From a candidate division CSSED10-310 bacterium (GTDB lineage Bacteria; CSSED10-310), in contig PWNJ01000187.1 of NCBI GenBank assembly GCA_003558985.1, positions 1 through 49,114 of the forward strand: a stretch of 49,114 nt of DNA. Direction: 5' to 3'. How positions within the stretch are numbered: the stretch's first letter is position 1; each line of letters begins with the position of its first letter. Below are positions 1 to 8,803 of this stretch, piece by piece. The notes beneath the pieces are model-generated. The model did no database searches, had not been told where the DNA came from, and worked only from the letters and a program-made list of their open reading frames with translations. Both the position numbers and the translations under genes were made by a program.

Positions 1-834
1 ATCAAATTCTTTCTGCAATGCATGTTGGACCTGTTCATGTTCAGAAGCATAACGTTTTTCTTCATTTTTGGATACTGACTGCAAATAGGACCCTATAACT
101 TCTCTGGAATCACCTTCCTGTTTCTGCACTCCATGAGATAGCCATACTGCACGTGAACATAACCGTTCTACTGCGCCAAGGTCATGACTGACCACAACAA
201 TTGTTTTGCCACGTCTTTTAAAATCAAAAATGCGTTCGAGGCATTTATGTACAAATGTCTGATCCCCAACAGCAAGAACTTCATCAATTAAAAGAATGTC
301 GGGGTTCACATGAACAGCTACAGCAAATCCCAGACGCATGAACATTCCCGACGAATAGGTTCTTACCGGATTATCGATGAAATCACGAAGATCTGCAAAA
401 TCAACTATTTCATCAAATTTGTCGCGGATCTGACTCTTTGTCAGCCCCAGCATGATGCCATTGATAAAAATGTTCTCACGACCCGATATTTCCGGATGAA
501 ATCCCGCTCCCAGCTCGATCAAAGCAGACAAGCGACCTTTGACATCAATACATCCTGATGTTGGTTTTAAAATACCGGCAATCAATTTTAGGACGGTTGA
601 TTTCCCTGAACCATTTGAACCGATAAAACCAATCGTTTCACCTTTGCGAACATTAACATTTAAACCCTTCAGAGCCCAGAAAACATCCTCATTGTCTGTT
701 TCATCCTGTCGGCCCTTTTTCAAATTCCAAAAATCGCGAATCAACGTACTTTTAAGCGTTAAAAATTGATTGCGGCGACTGTGCTTTTTGAAACACTTTG
801 TGATATCAGACATTTGTATCACATATTTACTCAT
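1..834 (-). CDS. Polysaccharide/teichoic-acid-type ABC exporter, ATP-binding subunit (3' end outside window)
   Basis: This is the ATPase of a Wzm/Wzt- or TagGH-type ABC exporter that moves lipid-linked polysaccharide across the inner membrane. I translated it by hand. It starts MSKYVIQMSDITK and contains Walker A GSNGSGKST, signature YSSGM, Walker B ILLIDEVL, a D-loop (AVGD) and the H-switch SHD. The stretch ELGAGFHPEISGREN is typical of the O-antigen/teichoic-acid export subfamily. The start ATG shares one base with the stop of the permease gene (TGATG), and GGAGG lies 7 nt upstream, so the two are translationally coupled. The frame is open to the window edge, so any C-terminal carbohydrate-binding domain of the Wzt type cannot be seen. 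Family assignment is firm; the exported glycan is unknown. Confidence 0.93.
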   Translation of the reverse strand, partial: MSKYVIQMSDITKCFKKHSRRNQFLTLKSTLIRDFWNLKKGRQDETDNEDVFWALKGLNVNVRKGETIGFIGSNGSGKSTVLKLIAGILKPTSGCIDVKGRLSALIELGAGFHPEISGRENIFINGIMLGLTKSQIRDKFDEIVDFADLRDFIDNPVRTYSSGMFMRLGFAVAVHVNPDILLIDEVLAVGDQTFVHKCLERIFDFKRRGKTIVVVSHDLGAVERLCSRAVWLSHGVQKQEGDSREVIGSYLQSVSKNEEKRYASEHEQVQHALQKEFD

Positions 835-1655
835 CAGATTTCCTCCGAAAAACCGGTTTTGAACCGATTAAATATCCGCCAGGAAACCATCAGCAATAGC
901 AACGATAAAACTGACACTGCCAACAAACCTGTCCACGGTAACTGCAAATTGAAAACAAACTCTTTTCCATCCGACATATTTTGTAAAAACATCCTGTGAT
1001 ATGCAGACATGATATGTTTCATCGGATTCATGTTCATGACAATGTAAATAACTCGGGGTTGCGCATCCAGGTTCAGGTCAATCATACGATATACAATCGG
1101 AGTCATAAAAAACCATAATGTCACAAGGTTGTTCAATATCTGCTGAATGTCTCTAAGATGGACAGATAATGCAGACAGCGCCAGAACCAGTCCAAATGTA
1201 AATACAAATTGAATGATCACAATAAGCGGAAAAGCCAGCAGGTTAAAACCTGGCGCTATTCGATAAAACATTAAAAAACCGGCCAGGATAGGTAATCCGA
1301 AAAAGAAATGAATCAAATTGGAGAGGACAACTACCAGCGGCAGGATTTCAGCCGGAAACATTACCTTTTTTACCAGATTCGCTCCCGAAATAATCGAGCT
1401 GCATCCTTCAAGCAGACTGGCAGAAAACCATAACCACGGTAACAAGCCGCAAAACAAATAAACATGGTAGTTTTCCATCGGATTTCTAAGATAAATGGAA
1501 AAAACCAGCCAATACACAAGCATCATCATGAAGGGATTAAGCATCGACCACATGAAACCCAGAACAGAACCGCGATAACGCGCCTTAAGGTCTCTGGATA
1601 CCAGAACAGCAATCAGAGCTCGATAACGATATAATTCACGAATTGATTCCAGCAC
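834..1655 (-). CDS. ABC-2 type polysaccharide export permease (Wzm/TagG-like)
   Basis: This is the membrane subunit partnering the ATPase encoded directly downstream. It has about six hydrophobic segments and the family hallmark near the N-terminus: RDLKARYRGSVLGFMWSMLN, then a first membrane helix ending in a short periplasmic loop. About 273 residues is the usual length. An upstream ATG at 1679 is possible, but I prefer the GTG at 1655, because GGAGG (1663-1667) sits 7 nt before it and inside the longer reading. The product would export O-antigen or capsule-like chains, matching the LPS genes elsewhere in the window. The substrate cannot be told from sequence. Confidence 0.9.
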   Translation of the reverse strand: MLESIRELYRYRALIAVLVSRDLKARYRGSVLGFMWSMLNPFMMMLVYWLVFSIYLRNPMENYHVYLFCGLLPWLWFSASLLEGCSSIISGANLVKKVMFPAEILPLVVVLSNLIHFFFGLPILAGFLMFYRIAPGFNLLAFPLIVIIQFVFTFGLVLALSALSVHLRDIQQILNNLVTLWFFMTPIVYRMIDLNLDAQPRVIYIVMNMNPMKHIMSAYHRMFLQNMSDGKEFVFNLQLPWTGLLAVSVLSLLLLMVSWRIFNRFKTGFSEEI

Positions 1656-1694
1656 TCGTATTCCTCCAAATCCGACCAAACATCAGAACATCGT

Positions 1695-1723
1695 AATGTA
1701 CAGTGTTCAATGCAAGTATTCAA
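1695..1723 (-). promoter_or_regulatory. Candidate promoter for the ABC exporter pair
   Basis: TTGAAT, 17 nt, TACATT on the minus strand; each hexamer matches the consensus at four of six positions. Transcription would start near 1688, in front of the GTG start at 1655. This is by-eye evidence only. Confidence 0.3.
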
Positions 1724-1783
1724 GACAGGAACGCAATTGGTGAAATCTTTTAGAAACTGATATCTGACATTTTTGATCAGTCG

Positions 1784-1815
1784 TTGTGGCTTCCTGGAAC
1801 TGATTTGGGTATAAT
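1784..1815 (+). promoter_or_regulatory. Candidate promoter for the beta-propeller gene
   Basis: A perfect TATAAT -10 box (1810-1815) lies 45 nt before the start codon. The best -35 match, TTGTGG (1784-1789), is 20 nt away, longer than ideal. Confidence 0.35.
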
Positions 1816-1860
1816 CAACATGTTTATTTTTCAAGTTGCTTCATAGAAGGAGATTTCATT

Positions 1861-3108
1861 ATGAAACAAATTGCAGCGGGTGTTTTGGGATTATTGTTTG
1901 CAGTCTCTGTAAATGCAGGCTGGCTGCTTCTGGATTCGCCTGTAACAACCAATCTTTATGCAATTTGCCATGTTGATGCAGATGAACTTTTTGTCGCCGG
2001 TGCGAAAGGCGTTATTCTGCATTATGATGGTGATGAATGGATTATCATGGATACCCCTGTTGAAAGCAGCCTGAAATCCATTTCCATGTTAAATTCTGAA
2101 GAAGGTTGGGCCGTTGGAGTAGAAGGGGCTATTTTGCGTTATGAAGACGGTACATGGCACGAATTTCCTTCTGAATCGGAAGGGCGCATGTATAACGCTG
2201 TTTCTGTCATCAGTTCTAATGAAGTTTATTTTCTGAGTTATGATTTTCTTCAGGGTACAAAACTGGAGCAATGGACTGGCGAAGAAATAGTTACCCTGGA
2301 GACATTTGCGGGAAATCATACAGAACTGATTGTGGAAAGTGAGGACGACATATGGATTGCCGGAGCTCAACAAATCTATCATTTTGATGGGACCGACTGG
2401 GATGGAAACACGTGGCATATACCTTCGGTAAACTTACATATATTCGGAATCTGTTTGAACGCCAATGGATACCCGATAGTCACTGGAACTCGTCTTCCAA
2501 ACTGGGATCTGGATTTGATCTATGAGTACATTCCTGAGGTTGGCTGGACGGAAAGATGGCAGGGGTATGAAAAACGCGTTGTTAAACCTGTTGTACACAA
2601 AACCCGGGGATTTGCTATTGGCGCCCGTGGCAGAATCGTGGAACATACCATTTTCGGCTGGCAGGAAATTACATCACTAACAACCTGGCAAATCAATGAT
2701 ATCGTGATGCCTGACATGTCCCGTGCCTGGGCGGTAACCGATCTGGGACAAATCCTTCAATATCAGGAGGCTTCAATTGAAGTCATAATGAATGACTCTG
2801 TATTCGCCGGGATGGACCCATTTGAGTTAAATATCAGAGTCTTCAATCCAGGTAATCCCTATTCAAACATCATGACATTAGTTATTCTGGAAGCATATGG
2901 ACACTTCTGGTTCTGGCCATCATGGACCGACACTTTTGACTGTGAGTTTATTGATTTGATCCAGGACCATGATGAAACAATGTCAATACTCTCCTTTACA
3001 TGGCCATCGAGCGCCGGCTCTGGTCAATCATCATTCTGGGGTGCTTTGCTTGATCCGGATAACAACATTCTATGCTATGATATTGAAACCTTTATGTGGA
3101 CTGATTAG
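1861..3108 (+). CDS. Secreted beta-propeller protein (BNR/Ycf48-like repeats)
   Basis: Function unknown. A signal peptide (basic start, hydrophobic core, VNA-GW cleavage near residue 19) sends it to the periplasm or outside. The body carries repeats of about 40 residues with the pattern ...V.AVG..G.ILRY.DG.W..., as in the tandem elements DADELFVAGAKGVILHYDG and NSEEGWAVGVEGAILRYEDG. These resemble the blades of BNR or Ycf48-type propellers, and they run to about residue 300. A final segment of about 110 residues looks like a separate beta-sandwich. GAAGGAG (1846-1852) precedes the ATG. It is transcribed away from the ABC exporter and meets ispH head-on, so it is a single-gene unit. Binding or scaffolding is likelier than catalysis. 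Confidence 0.72.
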   Translation: MKQIAAGVLGLLFAVSVNAGWLLLDSPVTTNLYAICHVDADELFVAGAKGVILHYDGDEWIIMDTPVESSLKSISMLNSEEGWAVGVEGAILRYEDGTWHEFPSESEGRMYNAVSVISSNEVYFLSYDFLQGTKLEQWTGEEIVTLETFAGNHTELIVESEDDIWIAGAQQIYHFDGTDWDGNTWHIPSVNLHIFGICLNANGYPIVTGTRLPNWDLDLIYEYIPEVGWTERWQGYEKRVVKPVVHKTRGFAIGARGRIVEHTIFGWQEITSLTTWQINDIVMPDMSRAWAVTDLGQILQYQEASIEVIMNDSVFAGMDPFELNIRVFNPGNPYSNIMTLVILEAYGHFWFWPSWTDTFDCEFIDLIQDHDETMSILSFTWPSSAGSGQSSFWGALLDPDNNILCYDIETFMWTD

Positions 3109-3158
3109 CATATAAAAGGTTGCTACTTCAAATCACTGAACACCTGTTCGGAGAGATT

Positions 3159-4643
3159 TTAAAAGCCGATCCTGAACAACATAGTCAATAGAGCTGTCAT
3201 CCAGACAGGCCCATCCAGATAAAGAAGATCGTATAAATCACACCATCCTTGTGTTTTCATTCGTCTGGATAAAAACAACGTAAAACCAGCCGGAATAATC
3301 AGCAGAAATGCTATAACCGGATCTGTAGTGAGCCATATCAAACCGAGGACAGCCAATAATGTCAGTCCAATACAAACAATTACGACAAGTTTTGTCAGTA
3401 TTTTCTTGTTCAGTGATGGCAGAGTAATATGCCCGGAAATTTTGTCAGCCTGAACGTTCAGACAATCGAAAAGGAGCAGGCGGTTAAAAAAGACAACTCC
3501 CAGAAAAACTGCTGCCAGAGCAGTATGCAACGCAGTAGTATGCTTGTAAACGTGAATGGCCGGCAGCATTGCCAGTAATGCTGACACGCCTATATCGAGT
3601 CCGGGATTGAACCGTTGACCGGAAATTCTCCAAATCCATACAAGAAAAGCCACAGCAGTAGCAGTTGGCCAGGCAGACACACCAGTTAATGCCAGCAGTA
3701 GTGAGTAGCACAATAATCCCAGTCCGGTTGCCCAGATCAGCGAAAAGGTATTGAATAATCGCATCATTTGATAAACCAGAGAGGCTGTTTTTCCATACTG
3801 TTGCCATCCAATAACCCGAATTCGTTCTACCACTTCACGTATCACCCATGCCGGAGTTGATGCGCCTGCTGTAATTGCAACTCTTTTCACACCTTCAAAA
3901 TCATTTGGAGACAAATCTTGAGCCGATTGAATCATTACAGCTTTGCAGTTTTTCCCGGCAATATCTGCCAGACGTTTTGTGTTAGCGCTATTTTTACCGC
4001 CCACAACTATCATGACATCGGATTCCATTGCCAGCGCCATAGTTTCAGTCTGCCGTTCAGTAGTGGCATCACAAATGGTATTGTGTACATGACATACTTT
4101 GAATTTTGTCCTGATGATTTTAACAGTTTGATCAAATATCACGGGGTCCTGGGTTGTCTGAGCAACGACACACGCTTCAGCGCCTTGTTCCAGTAGTGCA
4201 GCTTCTTCAGGACCTGTAACCACCAGACCGGATGTCTGACAGTAACCCAGCAAACCGTCAACTTCAGCATGACCACGGTCACCAATAATGATTACAGGGC
4301 ATTTTCTTTGTGAGTATTTTTTAACAATTGCCTGAACCTGACCCACTTTAGGACAAGTAGCATCACAGACCAGCGCACCTTGCTCTCTAAGCAATCTTCG
4401 AGTATCCGGAGTTACGCCATGCGCACGTAAAACAACATGCTTGCCAGTAACATCTTCGCTTTCATCCAGTTCTCTGACAGCGCGATGTTTTAATGCTTCC
4501 AACACCTGTTCATTGTGAATAAGCGGACCAAGAGTTCGCACAGGAAGCGTTGAATTGTTTCGAATATCGATTAATCTGTCCAGTGCTTTTCTAACGCCAA
4601 AACAGAACCCTGCACTGGAAGCGACCTTTATTTTAAAGGCCAT
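3159..4643 (-). CDS. ispH: 4-hydroxy-3-methylbut-2-enyl diphosphate reductase (IspH) fused to a UbiA-like membrane domain
   Basis: The N-terminal ~280 residues are a complete IspH (LytB), the last step of the MEP isoprenoid pathway, which makes IPP and DMAPP from HMBPP. The three iron-sulfur cysteines are C14 (AGFCFGV), C97 (CDATCPK) and C191 (NTICDATTERQ). H43, H75, H125, E127, VGGKNSANTKRL and ITAGASTP are also present. From about residue 297 to 494 comes a polytopic domain with roughly seven helices. Its FDCLNVQADKISGHITLPSL (D393, D400) resembles the second Asp-rich motif of UbiA prenyltransferases. The first UbiA motif (NDxxDxxxD) is absent. The start is M at 4643; a longer reading would run back into the bactofilin gene, which ends 19 nt upstream. 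IspH function is firm; activity of the membrane domain is doubtful. Confidence 0.9.
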   Translation of the reverse strand: MAFKIKVASSAGFCFGVRKALDRLIDIRNNSTLPVRTLGPLIHNEQVLEALKHRAVRELDESEDVTGKHVVLRAHGVTPDTRRLLREQGALVCDATCPKVGQVQAIVKKYSQRKCPVIIIGDRGHAEVDGLLGYCQTSGLVVTGPEEAALLEQGAEACVVAQTTQDPVIFDQTVKIIRTKFKVCHVHNTICDATTERQTETMALAMESDVMIVVGGKNSANTKRLADIAGKNCKAVMIQSAQDLSPNDFEGVKRVAITAGASTPAWVIREVVERIRVIGWQQYGKTASLVYQMMRLFNTFSLIWATGLGLLCYSLLLALTGVSAWPTATAVAFLVWIWRISGQRFNPGLDIGVSALLAMLPAIHVYKHTTALHTALAAVFLGVVFFNRLLLFDCLNVQADKISGHITLPSLNKKILTKLVVIVCIGLTLLAVLGLIWLTTDPVIAFLLIIPAGFTLFLSRRMKTQGWCDLYDLLYLDGPVWMTALLTMLFRIGF

Positions 4644-4662
4644 AAACCTGGCAAGAATGCCA

Positions 4663-5286
4663 CTACTTTTGTGGCGGTGGTCCCGGAACCGGTTTGGCTG
4701 TTTCGGGCAGTTTAGGAGGTTTGGGAGGCGGTTGTTTATTCGAAGAGTCAGCATTTTTTGATTCAGTTTTTTCTGGCGCATTTTTCTGATGGAATTTTGA
4801 GGCCGCTTCCATATCTATTTTGCCTTTATATACAGCGCCTGACGCCACAACTACTCTTGGAGCGATAATATTGCCTTTCATTGATCCGGTTTTGTTTATC
4901 GAGATTTTTTGCCGGGCTTCAACATTTCCATCCAACTTGCCTTCTACTGTTACTAAATCAGCTTTTATATCGCCTTCAACAATACCACCACTTCCGATAA
5001 TAACCTCGTTCTGAACTTCAAGAGTTCCCTTTACAACACCTTCAACTCGAATGGAACCTGATCCTTTTACCGTACCATCAAATGTTAAATCTTTACCTAT
5101 TGTTGTGGAACCATCTGGCGATTTGACTATTGTTGGCTGAACAGGATCAAATGATGGTTTTGGCGGTGGCAGATTTGTTTTGCCGTAATCACTTTGCTGC
5201 CGGGTAGTATCCGGTTTAGGCTCTTTATCCGATGGTTCCTGATCAAATGGACGGCGGGGGTCTTTGTTCCGAAATATTGCAAGCAT
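4663..5286 (-). CDS. Bactofilin (polymer-forming cytoskeletal protein)
   Basis: 207 residues. The core (about residues 60-150) is a right-handed beta-helix of short repeats such as GSGSIRVEGVVKGTLEV, GSGGIVEGDIKADLVTV and GSMKGNIIAPRVVV, the bactofilin (DUF583) pattern. Proline-rich flexible tails flank it at both ends (NLPPPKPSFDP; KPPKLPETAKPVPGPPP), as in other bactofilins. The family self-assembles into nucleotide-independent filaments that organise envelope growth, shape or appendages. The start at 5286 is chosen because AGGGAG (5294-5299) lies 7 nt upstream; an ATG nine codons earlier has no such site. It lies between tRNA-Gly and ispH on the same strand. Confidence 0.92.
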   Translation of the reverse strand: MLAIFRNKDPRRPFDQEPSDKEPKPDTTRQQSDYGKTNLPPPKPSFDPVQPTIVKSPDGSTTIGKDLTFDGTVKGSGSIRVEGVVKGTLEVQNEVIIGSGGIVEGDIKADLVTVEGKLDGNVEARQKISINKTGSMKGNIIAPRVVVASGAVYKGKIDMEAASKFHQKNAPEKTESKNADSSNKQPPPKPPKLPETAKPVPGPPPQK

Positions 5287-5330
5287 GAAAAATCTCCCTA
5301 TCTGATAATTCACGAATATCCATATTCATG

Positions 5331-5355
5331 AAAAATAACAGCGTCTTGCAACGCT
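5331..5355 (-). terminator. Weak terminator-like hairpin after tRNA-Gly
   Basis: On the minus strand AGCGT, six loop bases, ACGCT, then GTTATTTTT. The stem is only 5 bp, so termination may be partial, leaving some read-through into bactofilin. Confidence 0.35.
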
Positions 5356-5358
5356 CAA

Positions 5359-5431
5359 AGCGGGAAACGGGATTCGAACCCGCGACTTGCAGCTTGGGAA
5401 GCTGCCACTCTACCAACTGAGTTACTCCCGC
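5359..5431 (-). tRNA. tRNA-Gly (anticodon CCC)
   Basis: A 73-nt cloverleaf reads GCGGGAG...TTCCCGC, with a 7-bp acceptor stem that includes one G-U at its base. The D loop contains AGTTGGTAGA. The anticodon arm is GCAGC-TTCCCAA-GCTGC, placing CCC at positions 34-36, so it decodes GGG. The T arm carries GGTTCGAATCCC. The discriminator is U, as usual for bacterial tRNA-Gly, and CCA is not encoded. Confidence 0.96.
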
Positions 5432-5452
5432 AATCTAAACCAAACCAACAAT

Positions 5453-5474
5453 AAAATTAGCAAAATTTTGCTAA
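5453..5474 (-). terminator. Palindrome acting as likely terminator of the TPR gene
   Basis: TTAGCAAAATTTTGCTAA (5457-5474) is a perfect 18-bp palindrome. On the minus strand it is followed by TTTTAT, as expected for an intrinsic terminator after the gene ending at 5510. The stem is AT-rich. It also overlaps a candidate promoter for the tRNA. Confidence 0.5.
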
Positions 5475-5483
5475 CGACGTCAA
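5456..5483 (-). promoter_or_regulatory. Candidate tRNA-Gly promoter
   Basis: TTGACG, 16 nt, GCTAAT on the minus strand, about 25 nt before the mature tRNA 5' end. The spacer and -10 lie inside the TTAGCAAAATTTTGCTAA palindrome. Confidence 0.4.
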
Positions 5484-5486
5484 CTT

Positions 5487-5504
5487 GTTTTTTTCGAAAA
5501 AAAC
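5487..5504. repeat. Perfect 18-bp palindrome
   Basis: GTTTTTTTCGAAAAAAAC reads the same on both strands and sits just behind the TPR gene's stop. No T run follows it on the minus strand, so it is not a terminator by itself. Confidence 0.6.
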
Positions 5505-5509
5505 CGTTC

Positions 5510-7954
5510 TCAGTCTGATTTTTCAAAATCAGACAGAATCTGCTCTACATCCCGAAAACCTGGTTGTTCACTCTGAATTTCGTTGAATATAGTAACGGCG
5601 CTGGTATTATGTCCTGCCAGCTTCATAGTTTTGGCAAGATCATATTTCAAATTCATTAATTCCTGAGTGTTTTCGGCTGAATGTTTGATAGCTTTGGTCA
5701 ACACCGCCATAGCTTTGTCAAATGCTCCAATCTGTGAATAGCACTGCGACAGAATGGGCGCTGTCTGAACAAAAAACTCCGGATAATCCATCGTAATTTG
5801 CAGCTCGGATATTGCTTCTTCAAACAATCCCATTTCCATATACGCAATCCCAAGATTATAGTGCGTTTCCGGTGATTGATCATGATCGCGAGTTATCAAG
5901 TCCTCACGAAACTCACGTACCACTTCAGCCAGCCCTTTGGAAAGCGCTCCATCATCTGTCGCCATAACGGAAGAATCCCCTCGGCCTATCTTGCTACCCA
6001 AAGGAATTTCCAAGGAACCAACAGCGTTTGTATCCAACCCCAAAGAAGATACCAAAGCTTCCTGATCATCTCCAAGATCAAAAAGTGGAGCCATATCCCC
6101 GGTCTGGACCGACTCCTGATCAGTCTCAACCATTTTTAAACGATCCAGAAGACCAGTGTGTCCCGGAACCAGCTTTAAAGCATCCATAATGATCATCCTG
6201 GCCCGTTCCAAAGCATTGTTCTCAATCAATAGCTCAGCTCGTTTGTCAATCACATCAGCCATTCGATCAAGCTTTCCCAACTGCTCATAAACTTCAGTCA
6301 ACCTCTCAAGCGATTCTTCATCAGAAGGATGCTTTGACAATATGGACTCCAACCGCTCCGCTGCCTTCTCCAACAGACCATATTTTATATACACACCCGC
6401 TTCAATTCGGAACTCCCGCAACTGATCGGCTGCAATCTCATCACTGTCGGCTCCCGTTTTCGTATCCTTGTCAATATCCGCTTCATCTTCCAGGGTGAAA
6501 ACCTCTTCATCCGATTCACCCTCTGATTCAACCACTTTGGGTGTGATAACAGTCGGAGCGCTCTGCTTCAAAGACGAGTATTCCGGCTTTTCAAGTTCAC
6601 TCGTATCAAACAAGCTCTCAAGCACATCGTCGTCAGATTCAATATCCAACTCAAATTTGCCGGATTGATGTTTACCAGGAGCTGATGATTCTGGTTTTAC
6701 AGATGGTTGGGCAGAGTCCGATTCCACCATCTCATCAAACGATGGACCCTCAACCAGTTTGCTGGTGTCAATCGGACGACCCCGGTATTCAATCGAAACC
6801 TGATTCAAACGATGCTTAACCTTTTGATCATGGGGATCCATCATGAACAAGCGTTCATAAATATTGAAACTTTCTTCAAGATGTCCCTGATTATAATGAA
6901 TTTCAGCGATTTCCTCGAAAAGATGTTTTACTTCATCATGCTTATCAAGCTTTTGATAAATCTCAATTTTTCTTTCACGAATCGAAACATTATCCGGATC
7001 AAGGTCCTGAAGACGGTTTAATATCTCAAGAGCACGTTTGTAATTACCCCTTTCAATTGATAACGAGATTATCTCCTTTAAAAACCTGAATGCCTCAGAA
7101 AACTGTCCCTTCGCAATGTAAAGTTTGCCAAGAGTTTCACAGACTCCATCCTGAGTCGGATCAATTGCATAAATATTCTTGTAAACTTTGATCGCATCGT
7201 CGATCTGCTTGTTATCAATATATATTTGGCCGATTTTTTGCAGCGCATCAATGTTTTCAGGGTTTCGTTCCAAAATCTGATCAAGCATTTGTCTGGCTTC
7301 ATCGGTACGGTTATCATCAATATAAGCGCTGATAATCCCCCTGAAAGCAGATTCATGCTCCGGAACCTCCTCAAGCGCCTGTTCATAGCTTTTTATCGCA
7401 GCGCTGGATTCACCCCTTTTAATGAATGCATCACCAATTTTGACTCGCTCATCTGCCGCTTTTTCGATGAAACCTTTTTGAGAATACAATCGCGCCAAAC
7501 GTTCGCGAATAGATATATTGGCTGGATCCAGATCGGCAATGTTTCTGTAGGAATCCAGCGCTGATTCAATATTTCCGTGATGTTCATGATGTCTGGCAAG
7601 AATCTCATACTGACTAATGGCATCCTGAATTAACCCTTGATCTGCATAAAGCTGAGCCAGTTTCTGATACACGTTTTCCCTGTCAGGATCCTGACGCAAA
7701 ATCTTTTTGTAAATAGCAAGCGCTCTGGGAATAAAACCTTTCTTTTCATAATACTCCCCGGCTTTCTCATATTCCTGAATTGCCTCCGCATAGTTTTTGG
7801 CTCTGTGAAGCAGATCGCCGATTGTATTATTAATGCTGTTATCACCATAGTCATCCTGTGTTAACTTTCGATATTCGTTAACCGCTTTAAGGTATTGTCC
7901 CTTTTTGGTGTACTTGGCGGCAGTTTTAAGAATTTTGTTTTTGTTTATTGCCAT
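5510..7954 (-). CDS. Large cytoplasmic tetratricopeptide-repeat protein
   Basis: 814 residues without signal peptide or membrane helix. TPR motifs fill about residues 5-400 (units such as GDLLHRAKNYAEAIQEYEKA and GQIYIDNKQIDDAIKVYKNI). An acidic, Ser/Asp-rich linker spans about 410-515. More TPRs follow at about 515-605, a second linker, and a last TPR block from about 690 (THYNLGIAYMEMGLFEEAIS). TPR arrays are protein-binding scaffolds; no enzymatic motif is visible. Similar long TPR-linker-TPR proteins occur in delta-proteobacteria and candidate phyla, but no precise function is known to me. AGAGGG lies 8 nt before the ATG. It has its own promoter inside the end of the lipM-like gene. Confidence 0.82.
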   Translation of the reverse strand: MAINKNKILKTAAKYTKKGQYLKAVNEYRKLTQDDYGDNSINNTIGDLLHRAKNYAEAIQEYEKAGEYYEKKGFIPRALAIYKKILRQDPDRENVYQKLAQLYADQGLIQDAISQYEILARHHEHHGNIESALDSYRNIADLDPANISIRERLARLYSQKGFIEKAADERVKIGDAFIKRGESSAAIKSYEQALEEVPEHESAFRGIISAYIDDNRTDEARQMLDQILERNPENIDALQKIGQIYIDNKQIDDAIKVYKNIYAIDPTQDGVCETLGKLYIAKGQFSEAFRFLKEIISLSIERGNYKRALEILNRLQDLDPDNVSIRERKIEIYQKLDKHDEVKHLFEEIAEIHYNQGHLEESFNIYERLFMMDPHDQKVKHRLNQVSIEYRGRPIDTSKLVEGPSFDEMVESDSAQPSVKPESSAPGKHQSGKFELDIESDDDVLESLFDTSELEKPEYSSLKQSAPTVITPKVVESEGESDEEVFTLEDEADIDKDTKTGADSDEIAADQLREFRIEAGVYIKYGLLEKAAERLESILSKHPSDEESLERLTEVYEQLGKLDRMADVIDKRAELLIENNALERARMIIMDALKLVPGHTGLLDRLKMVETDQESVQTGDMAPLFDLGDDQEALVSSLGLDTNAVGSLEIPLGSKIGRGDSSVMATDDGALSKGLAEVVREFREDLITRDHDQSPETHYNLGIAYMEMGLFEEAISELQITMDYPEFFVQTAPILSQCYSQIGAFDKAMAVLTKAIKHSAENTQELMNLKYDLAKTMKLAGHNTSAVTIFNEIQSEQPGFRDVEQILSDFEKSD

Positions 7955-7991
7955 TCTGGTATCCCTCTGAAAAAGTATTCAAACTATAGAG

Positions 7992-8019
7992 ATTACAGCT
8001 TAATCACAATTATTGTCAA
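7992..8019 (-). promoter_or_regulatory. Promoter for the large TPR gene
   Basis: TTGACA (8014-8019), 16 nt, TGTAAT (7992-7997) on the minus strand: a full consensus -35 and a five-of-six -10. It overlaps the last codons of the upstream gene and would start transcription about 30 nt before the ATG at 7954. Confidence 0.6.
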
Positions 8020-8803
8020 GACAGTCGGCAAGGTTGAAATACTTTTCTTTCGCCAGCTTGATAGCTAGCGAATATTCTGATTTCGTGTATTCATTACGCT
8101 CAAACTTGATTCCGAAAACAGCCTGAAATCCATCGCACAAAGCCTGGTGTATCTGAGCCACCGAAGGAAGCGGGCTAAGGTGTGATTGCAAATCTGTTGC
8201 CTTGTTCTGCATGTTTTCAGGACTGTTTTTCATGACGTTCGCCCATGCTGAGGCATTATACTTAAACAATAGCGATCCATGCTGAAAAACTTTGTCTTGC
8301 GTGCGTTTTTGTGCTGATCCAAGCATTTTTTTACCGGCCACAGTCACTTCGTAGGATGATGCAGCCGCAAAACACGACGAAATCATACCTTTAAGCGGTG
8401 GCGTATTTCTTTCCGCAAGAATCGCACCAATGCCCAGTTTTTTCAATCCATGACAAAACGCTTTGCCAATTTCACAATATGCATCAAGCAAACTCAGACT
8501 AAATGGAAGCGCCTTTTTTGAGCCAGTCAGCGAATACGTCAGTTCATTATCATGAAGCACCGCTTTTCCACCAGTCAAACGCCGAAAAACCGGCACCCCC
8601 TCAGTCCGGCAATGATTCACGTTTATATGTTTGTCAACACTTTGAGCCATACCGATTGATACCGAAGGCGTATCCCATTCATAGAAACGAAGTGTCGGAA
8701 TATCCGATTTTCGTTGCAACAATACCTCATCTAGCGCCATATTCATACTGCCGCTTAGTTTATGATCAATTATCAGATACCAGATTCCGGATTCACATTT
8801 CAC
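8000..8803 (-). CDS. Octanoyltransferase of the LipM/LplA family
   Basis: 267 residues of the biotin/lipoate ligase (BPL_LplA_LipB) fold. Family motifs are TLRFYEWDTPSVSIG, the RRLTGGKAVLHDNELTYS substrate loop, and a later VAGKKMLGSAQKR. C144 in ISSCFAAASSYEV lines up with the catalytic Cys of LipM. That favours transfer of octanoyl from acyl-ACP to a lipoyl domain (first step of lipoate synthesis) over ATP-dependent LplA ligase activity. The start is GTG at 8803, only 8 nt after the aminotransferase stop, so it is co-transcribed. No lipA or 2-oxoacid dehydrogenase gene is in the window. A lipoate ligase role cannot be excluded. Confidence 0.82.
   Translation of the reverse strand: MKCESGIWYLIIDHKLSGSMNMALDEVLLQRKSDIPTLRFYEWDTPSVSIGMAQSVDKHINVNHCRTEGVPVFRRLTGGKAVLHDNELTYSLTGSKKALPFSLSLLDAYCEIGKAFCHGLKKLGIGAILAERNTPPLKGMISSCFAAASSYEVTVAGKKMLGSAQKRTQDKVFQHGSLLFKYNASAWANVMKNSPENMQNKATDLQSHLSPLPSVAQIHQALCDGFQAVFGIKFERNEYTKSEYSLAIKLAKEKYFNLADCLDNNCD

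Follow-up and report, generated by a model that had tools for sequence, protein, structure and literature searches.

The window analysed here is a 49,114-nt stretch of DNA from a candidate division CSSED10-310 bacterium (GenBank assembly GCA_003558985.1, contig PWNJ01000187.1, positions 1 to 49,114); its genome is referred to as G000. On the minus strand, positions 3159-4643 hold a single open reading frame (ORF), ispH-ubiA, with an ATG at 4643, a TAA stop at 3161-3159, and a product of 494 aa in which IspH is followed by a shortened UbiA-like membrane domain; the plus strand across these positions is riddled with stops. The original prediction, made without database searches, had given the coordinates correctly, and the strand, which it left unstated, was added by ORF reading. 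The observation is genuine: the gene is a shortened form, conserved in relatives, of an already known fusion, with seven predicted transmembrane (TM) helices in the tail and without the first of the two Asp-rich UbiA motifs (motif 1). The parts of the gene are as follows.

3804..4643, minus strand: IspH (LytB) domain, residues 1-280 (Pfam LYTB, Foldseek, PDB match, and 29-sequence alignment)
3162..3740, minus strand: shortened UbiA-like membrane domain, residues 302-494, seven predicted TM helices, N terminus in and C terminus out (hhalign and hydropathy)
3600..3629, minus strand: deletion junction, cytoplasmic loop RISGQRFNPG, residues 339-348 (hhalign gap position)
3417..3482, minus strand: motif-2 segment RLLLFDCLNVQADKISGHITLP, residues 388-409, with D393, N396, and D400 (identity between genera and alignment)

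The IspH half

IspH is the (E)-4-hydroxy-3-methylbut-2-enyl diphosphate (HMBPP) reductase, which converts HMBPP to isopentenyl diphosphate (IPP) and dimethylallyl diphosphate (DMAPP) in the last step of the methylerythritol phosphate (MEP) pathway. Pfam LYTB covered residues 5-275 (E = 2.5e-85; 286 bits against a cut-off of 24.5), and the TIGR00216 score of the IspH part was 265, above the cut-off of 187.85. The best PDB match of this part by sequence was Aquifex IspH 3dnf (E = 1.7e-56), and its AlphaFold model was confident (predicted local distance difference test [pLDDT] mostly >90), with IspH structures as the only Foldseek matches of the whole model. Residues C14, C97, and C191, which we take to be the cluster cysteines, and H43, H125, E127, T164, S219, N221, and S262, presumably active-site residues as in Escherichia coli IspH, were invariant in the 29-sequence IspH alignment and are all present here.

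The host phylum is small (eight genomes, G000-G007). One LYTB match and one IspG match were found in G000, which is 60% complete. Each relative with IspH has a single copy with IspG alongside, including G002 (90% complete), and the two pieces found in G001 sit at contig ends. A functional enzyme is expected of the IspH half. In G006 and G007 (6.1 and 9.2 Mb), neither IspG nor IspH was matched, which suggests a different isoprenoid route in these two genomes.

Derivation of the tail and its remaining motif

Residues 281-494 form the membrane part, in which hydropathy predicted seven helices, the number given in the original prediction. PF01040 (UbiA) scored below its gathering cut-off of 34.2 bits, both on residues 302-460 (14.1 bits) and with the tail alone (16.7 bits). 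A tail profile was built from three truncated tails, those of the window and of L002 and L119 from two other genera of its family, the L119 gene (G001) being split over two contig ends (C200 with the first 243 residues and C103 with the rest). It was compared using hhalign with 25 full-length fused tails, all of which matched PF01040 and whose own profile finds the digeranylgeranylglyceryl phosphate synthase 6m31 (E = 2.1e-9), and the two aligned with a probability of 99.2 and E = 2e-19. The UbiA assignment is firm because of this comparison with tails that match PF01040, the Pfam score alone being too low; by profile homology, the tail is UbiA-derived. A complete IspH and a UbiA-like membrane tail in one frame, as originally predicted, are thus borne out by the LYTB match and the profile comparison.

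In the hhalign path, TM1-TM2 aligned; a stretch of about 80 residues in the profile of full-length tails was then passed over, and the alignment resumed at the start of TM5 (NPGLD versus PASKD) and went on through TM6, motif 2, and TM7-TM9. Where the window has RISGQRFNPG, full-length relatives carry motif 1, TM3, TM4, and loop 4-5. The pattern W-R--G-R-NP--D is conserved at the junction in all three truncated tails. By hydropathy, 3/3 truncated tails had seven helices, whereas full-length tails mostly had nine, with 7 to 11 in individual cases by the simple scanning method used. The loops predicted inside hold most of the K and R residues, so that the positive-inside rule is kept in the truncated tails; as the two helices lost are an even number, the topology is kept and motif 2 stays cytoplasmic. 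In the sister family (L005), the tail still has nine helices and motif 1 has decayed. A single-sequence model of the tail showed seven helical elements at low confidence (pLDDT 55; predicted template modelling score 0.34).

The original prediction had named D393/D400 as the second Asp-rich motif, the only one left. Both residues are present and motif 1 (NxxxDxxxD) is absent with the deleted region; the pair that corresponds to the canonical DxxxD is instead N396-D400, since the residues ahead of the xxxGxxxLP stretch read N396-V-Q-A-D400 (compare DMEGD in 6m31) and D393 lies three residues upstream of this pair. One metal ligand of two is thus left in motif 2, the other being N or H. D400, the last Asp of motif 2, and G404 were invariant in 29/29 tails compared.

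Motif 1 is also eroded among the full-length fused tails, with N..D..D intact in 2 of 25 (L010 and L011), whereas most stand-alone UbiA proteins encoded in these genomes retain it. The same script, with a looser pattern set (the strict NDxxDxxxD being too narrow), was applied as a control to 32 stand-alone frames, one of them taken from G000 and 31 from profile matches or other fusion genomes, and a motif-1-type pattern was found in 25. The negatives included shifted or NE..D variants (L156 and L164) and an odd variant, NIDHLRDLRRD (L148); L168 (negative) and L146 (one of the 25 positives) were wrongly chosen frames. The remaining negatives, L145, L147, and L149, form with the real UbiA-like protein of L146 a stand-alone group without recognisable motif 1. 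These proteins (L145, 1489-2364, plus strand; L146, 1501-2442, minus; L147, 1465-2364, plus; L149, 1426-2313, plus) keep motif 2 and match the fused-tail profile with E values of 7e-21 to 4e-12; the 5' neighbour of L145 and L146 resembles the SdhB/FrdB iron-sulfur subunit.

In AfUbiA, Mg is bound by N68 and D72 of motif 1 and by D198 and D202 of motif 2; N68A or D72A abolishes binding of geranyl diphosphate (GPP), D198A weakens it 45-fold and D202A 21-fold, and the equivalents of these ligands in E. coli MenA are all required for activity (PMC4106721). The original prediction had considered channelling or sensing of isoprenoids; by way of the canonical prenyl-diphosphate site, either is weakened, since the motif-1 residues on which GPP binding in AfUbiA depends are missing here (PMC4106721). 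That the tail is a canonical UbiA enzyme can be ruled out.

Constraint, distribution, and gene neighbourhood

Between genera, identity was 31-38% in the tail, 68-73% in the IspH part, and 72-76% in the motif-2 segment; for G000 and G002, the values were 38% for the tail, 73% for IspH, and 76% for a stretch of 25 residues about motif 2. In the tail, codon positions 1/2/3 were identical at 53/64/34% between these two genomes, a bias that shows constraint on the protein sequence; synonymous sites are saturated at this distance. Judged by these identities, constraint on the tail is weak overall and strong at motif 2.

The 25 aligned full-length fusions come from a wide range of bacterial families. 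When 290 sampled genomes were scanned with the fused-tail profile, 25 matches had E <1e-22, all in frames of 558-637 residues. Among the matches listed for 386 genomes, the IspHs closest to that of the window were nearly all in long frames, and no shortened form was seen in a second lineage, as judged by frame length only. The shortened seven-helix tail occurs in three genera of the window's family. In a tree of IspH made with a quick method, fused IspHs clustered (3 changes for 28 rows, with no shuffle as low), and the tree is compatible with a single origin of the fused IspHs and likewise with more than one. One scan of named genome contigs gave unfused or S1-fused IspH only and no IspH-UbiA, and no tail relatives were found in viral contigs. 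Separate UbiA-type genes were present in 16/16 fusion genomes tested and in G000. The other UbiA of G000 (L031, G000:C8:30961-31635) keeps NDMADIKRD and resembles the decaprenyl-phosphate phosphoribosyltransferase type; a MenA-like gene was not found in this genome, at its 60% completeness.

Within the limits set by contig ends, the fusion lies in a conserved gene order in five genomes of the window's order (G000-G004), next to the following genes.

4663..5313, minus strand: bactofilin-like gene, 5' neighbour, ending 19 bases before the ispH-ubiA start; also in G001-G004 (named by reading)
5510..7954, minus strand: tetratricopeptide repeat (TPR) protein, conserved neighbour (named by reading the sequence)
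1861..3108, plus strand: exported propeller-like protein, convergent, order-conserved neighbour (named by reading the sequence)

Across 834-8803, the order is lplA, TPR protein, bactofilin, ispH-ubiA, convergent propeller protein, and ATP-binding cassette export genes, an arrangement that recurs across the taxonomic order (L032, L033, L034, L036, and L037). G005, from the same phylum, carries the fusion in a different context, and by eye no shared neighbours were seen among the other fusion loci fetched outside the window's order. Genomic context was set aside as a functional clue, the neighbours being conserved within this order only.

A local fusion error, which separate genes in relatives would have indicated, was the original prediction's own counter-explanation; relatives carry the same single frame. 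Chance or assembly error is ruled out, as two more genera have this shortened fusion with an identical gene order, and a local fusion or assembly error is rejected because three genera share the shortened fusion and the sister family has the full-length form.

Interpretation and comparison with known systems

Among the functions originally proposed, membrane anchoring of IspH is the best supported. As a catalytically dead, reduced UbiA domain, the tail probably serves to tether a working IspH to the inner membrane on its cytoplasmic side, and from the sequence features above we infer an anchor that places IspH at the membrane. The tail would be inserted with its N terminus in the cytoplasm, would lack prenyltransferase activity, and might bring IspH close to a membrane electron donor or to the enzymes by which IPP/DMAPP are converted to polyprenyl diphosphates; the cytoplasmic TM6-TM7 loop with motif 2 would probably contact IspH or a partner and not a prenyl diphosphate. 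Weighing against an anchor are the conservation of the motif-2 segment, which is stronger than a plain anchor requires, the tail model, which is not confident (pLDDT mostly 35-70 in the full protein and mean 55 alone), and the 60% completeness of G000, which makes a second IspH there possible. A sensor or scaffold role is conceivable for the conserved segment.

A regulatory sensor, in which a prenyl diphosphate or lipid bound via the motif-2 half-site tunes IspH activity or stability, as with UBIAD1 and 3-hydroxy-3-methylglutaryl-coenzyme A (HMG-CoA) reductase, is unlikely. In its favour, no part of the tail is better conserved than the motif-2 segment (72-76% versus 37-38% for the whole tail), D400 and G404 are invariant in 29 tails, and stand-alone UbiA-like proteins with motif 2 and no recognisable motif 1 exist (L145, L146, L147, and L149). 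Against it, the window's tail has lost motif 1, TM3, and TM4 and has N or H in place of one motif-2 ligand, and the parallel with UBIAD1 is one of analogy. Extended to all fused UbiA-like domains as a family of pseudo-prenyltransferases that would sense membrane isoprenoids via the motif-2 half-site and control IspH, the idea becomes rather improbable; if true, the family would be a bacterial counterpart in logic to UBIAD1/HMG-CoA reductase, with the window's lineage as its minimal version.

We give a similarly small chance to a decaying, functionless remnant, tolerated as IspH works without the tail. Such decay would agree with the stepwise loss, in which motif 1 was eroded family-wide and helices were lost in the window's lineage, and with tail identity falling to 31-38% between genera while IspH holds 68-73%; it is countered by the open frame in all three genera, the third-position bias, the retained seven-helix topology with positive-inside loops, and the 72-76% identity of the motif-2 segment. 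Very improbable is lasting prenyltransferase activity of the tail, in which IspH would supply an enzyme whose active site is unusual, as proposed by Rao et al. for full-length fusions. The UbiA fold is indicated by homology, L010 and L011 retain N..D..D, and Rao et al. report two DxxxD repeats and favour activity (PMC4746011), but in the window's tail motif 1, TM3, and TM4 are deleted, the conserved AfUbiA active-site residues Y139/S140 apparently fall, by their numbering, within the deleted stretch, and G000, like each of the 16 fusion genomes tested, has a UbiA-type gene of its own besides the fusion.

That motif 1 is eroded family-wide and deleted altogether here argues against most fused domains being ordinary prenyltransferases and suggests that they place the last MEP-pathway enzyme at the membrane or regulate it, counter to the published enzymatic reading of the IspH-UbiA family as a prenyltransferase fed by IspH. 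The seven-helix version would be a natural minimal construct for testing placement or regulation.

A novel fusion, as which it had seemed in the original prediction, was rejected because IspH-UbiA was published in 2015 by Rao et al., who described 47 such proteins in sulfate reducers, mainly Desulfobacterales, with two DxxxD repeats and nine predicted helices in the Desulfobacterales fusions; prenyltransferase activity was considered likely, and active full-length protein was not obtained by expression (PMC4746011). In later literature, the name was found only in one reference list, most subscription journals lying outside the search. New here is the seven-helix, motif-1-deleted variant and not the fusion itself. 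The window's protein shares with the fusions of sulfate reducers (PMC4746011; CDD PT_UbiA_5) an N-terminal IspH and a C-terminal UbiA-like domain in one frame, whereas theirs is described with nine TM helices and two DxxxD motifs and that of the window has seven helices, no motif 1, and N396-D400; it is a variant and not a typical member as defined by two DxxxD motifs and about nine TM helices. With the UbiA superfamily (PF01040; 6m31 and AfUbiA), the tail shares the D...D...G..TLP motif-2 loop and a predicted cytoplasmic N terminus, but it is without motif 1 (NDxxDxxxD), TM3, and TM4, and prenyltransferase activity is not expected.

The IspH-RPS1 (IspH-S1) fusions of Firmicutes (NF000907/PRK00087) likewise have a second domain C-terminal to IspH, but their partner consists of S1 RNA-binding repeats, which are soluble and unrelated to UbiA. 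A CMP kinase-IspH-RPS1 protein was listed by Rao et al. from Arthromitus only (PMC4746011); one frame (L023, 727-2331) reads cytidylate kinase and then directly IspH, with no S1 repeats. The likeness to UBIAD1 and HMG-CoA reductase of animals is one of logic only, a UbiA-family membrane protein being attached in each case to an isoprenoid-pathway enzyme (PMC9314443); in the animal pair, by contrast, the partners are not covalently joined and the pathway is that of mevalonate, UBIAD1 has both motifs and is itself an enzyme, and the reductases are not homologous.
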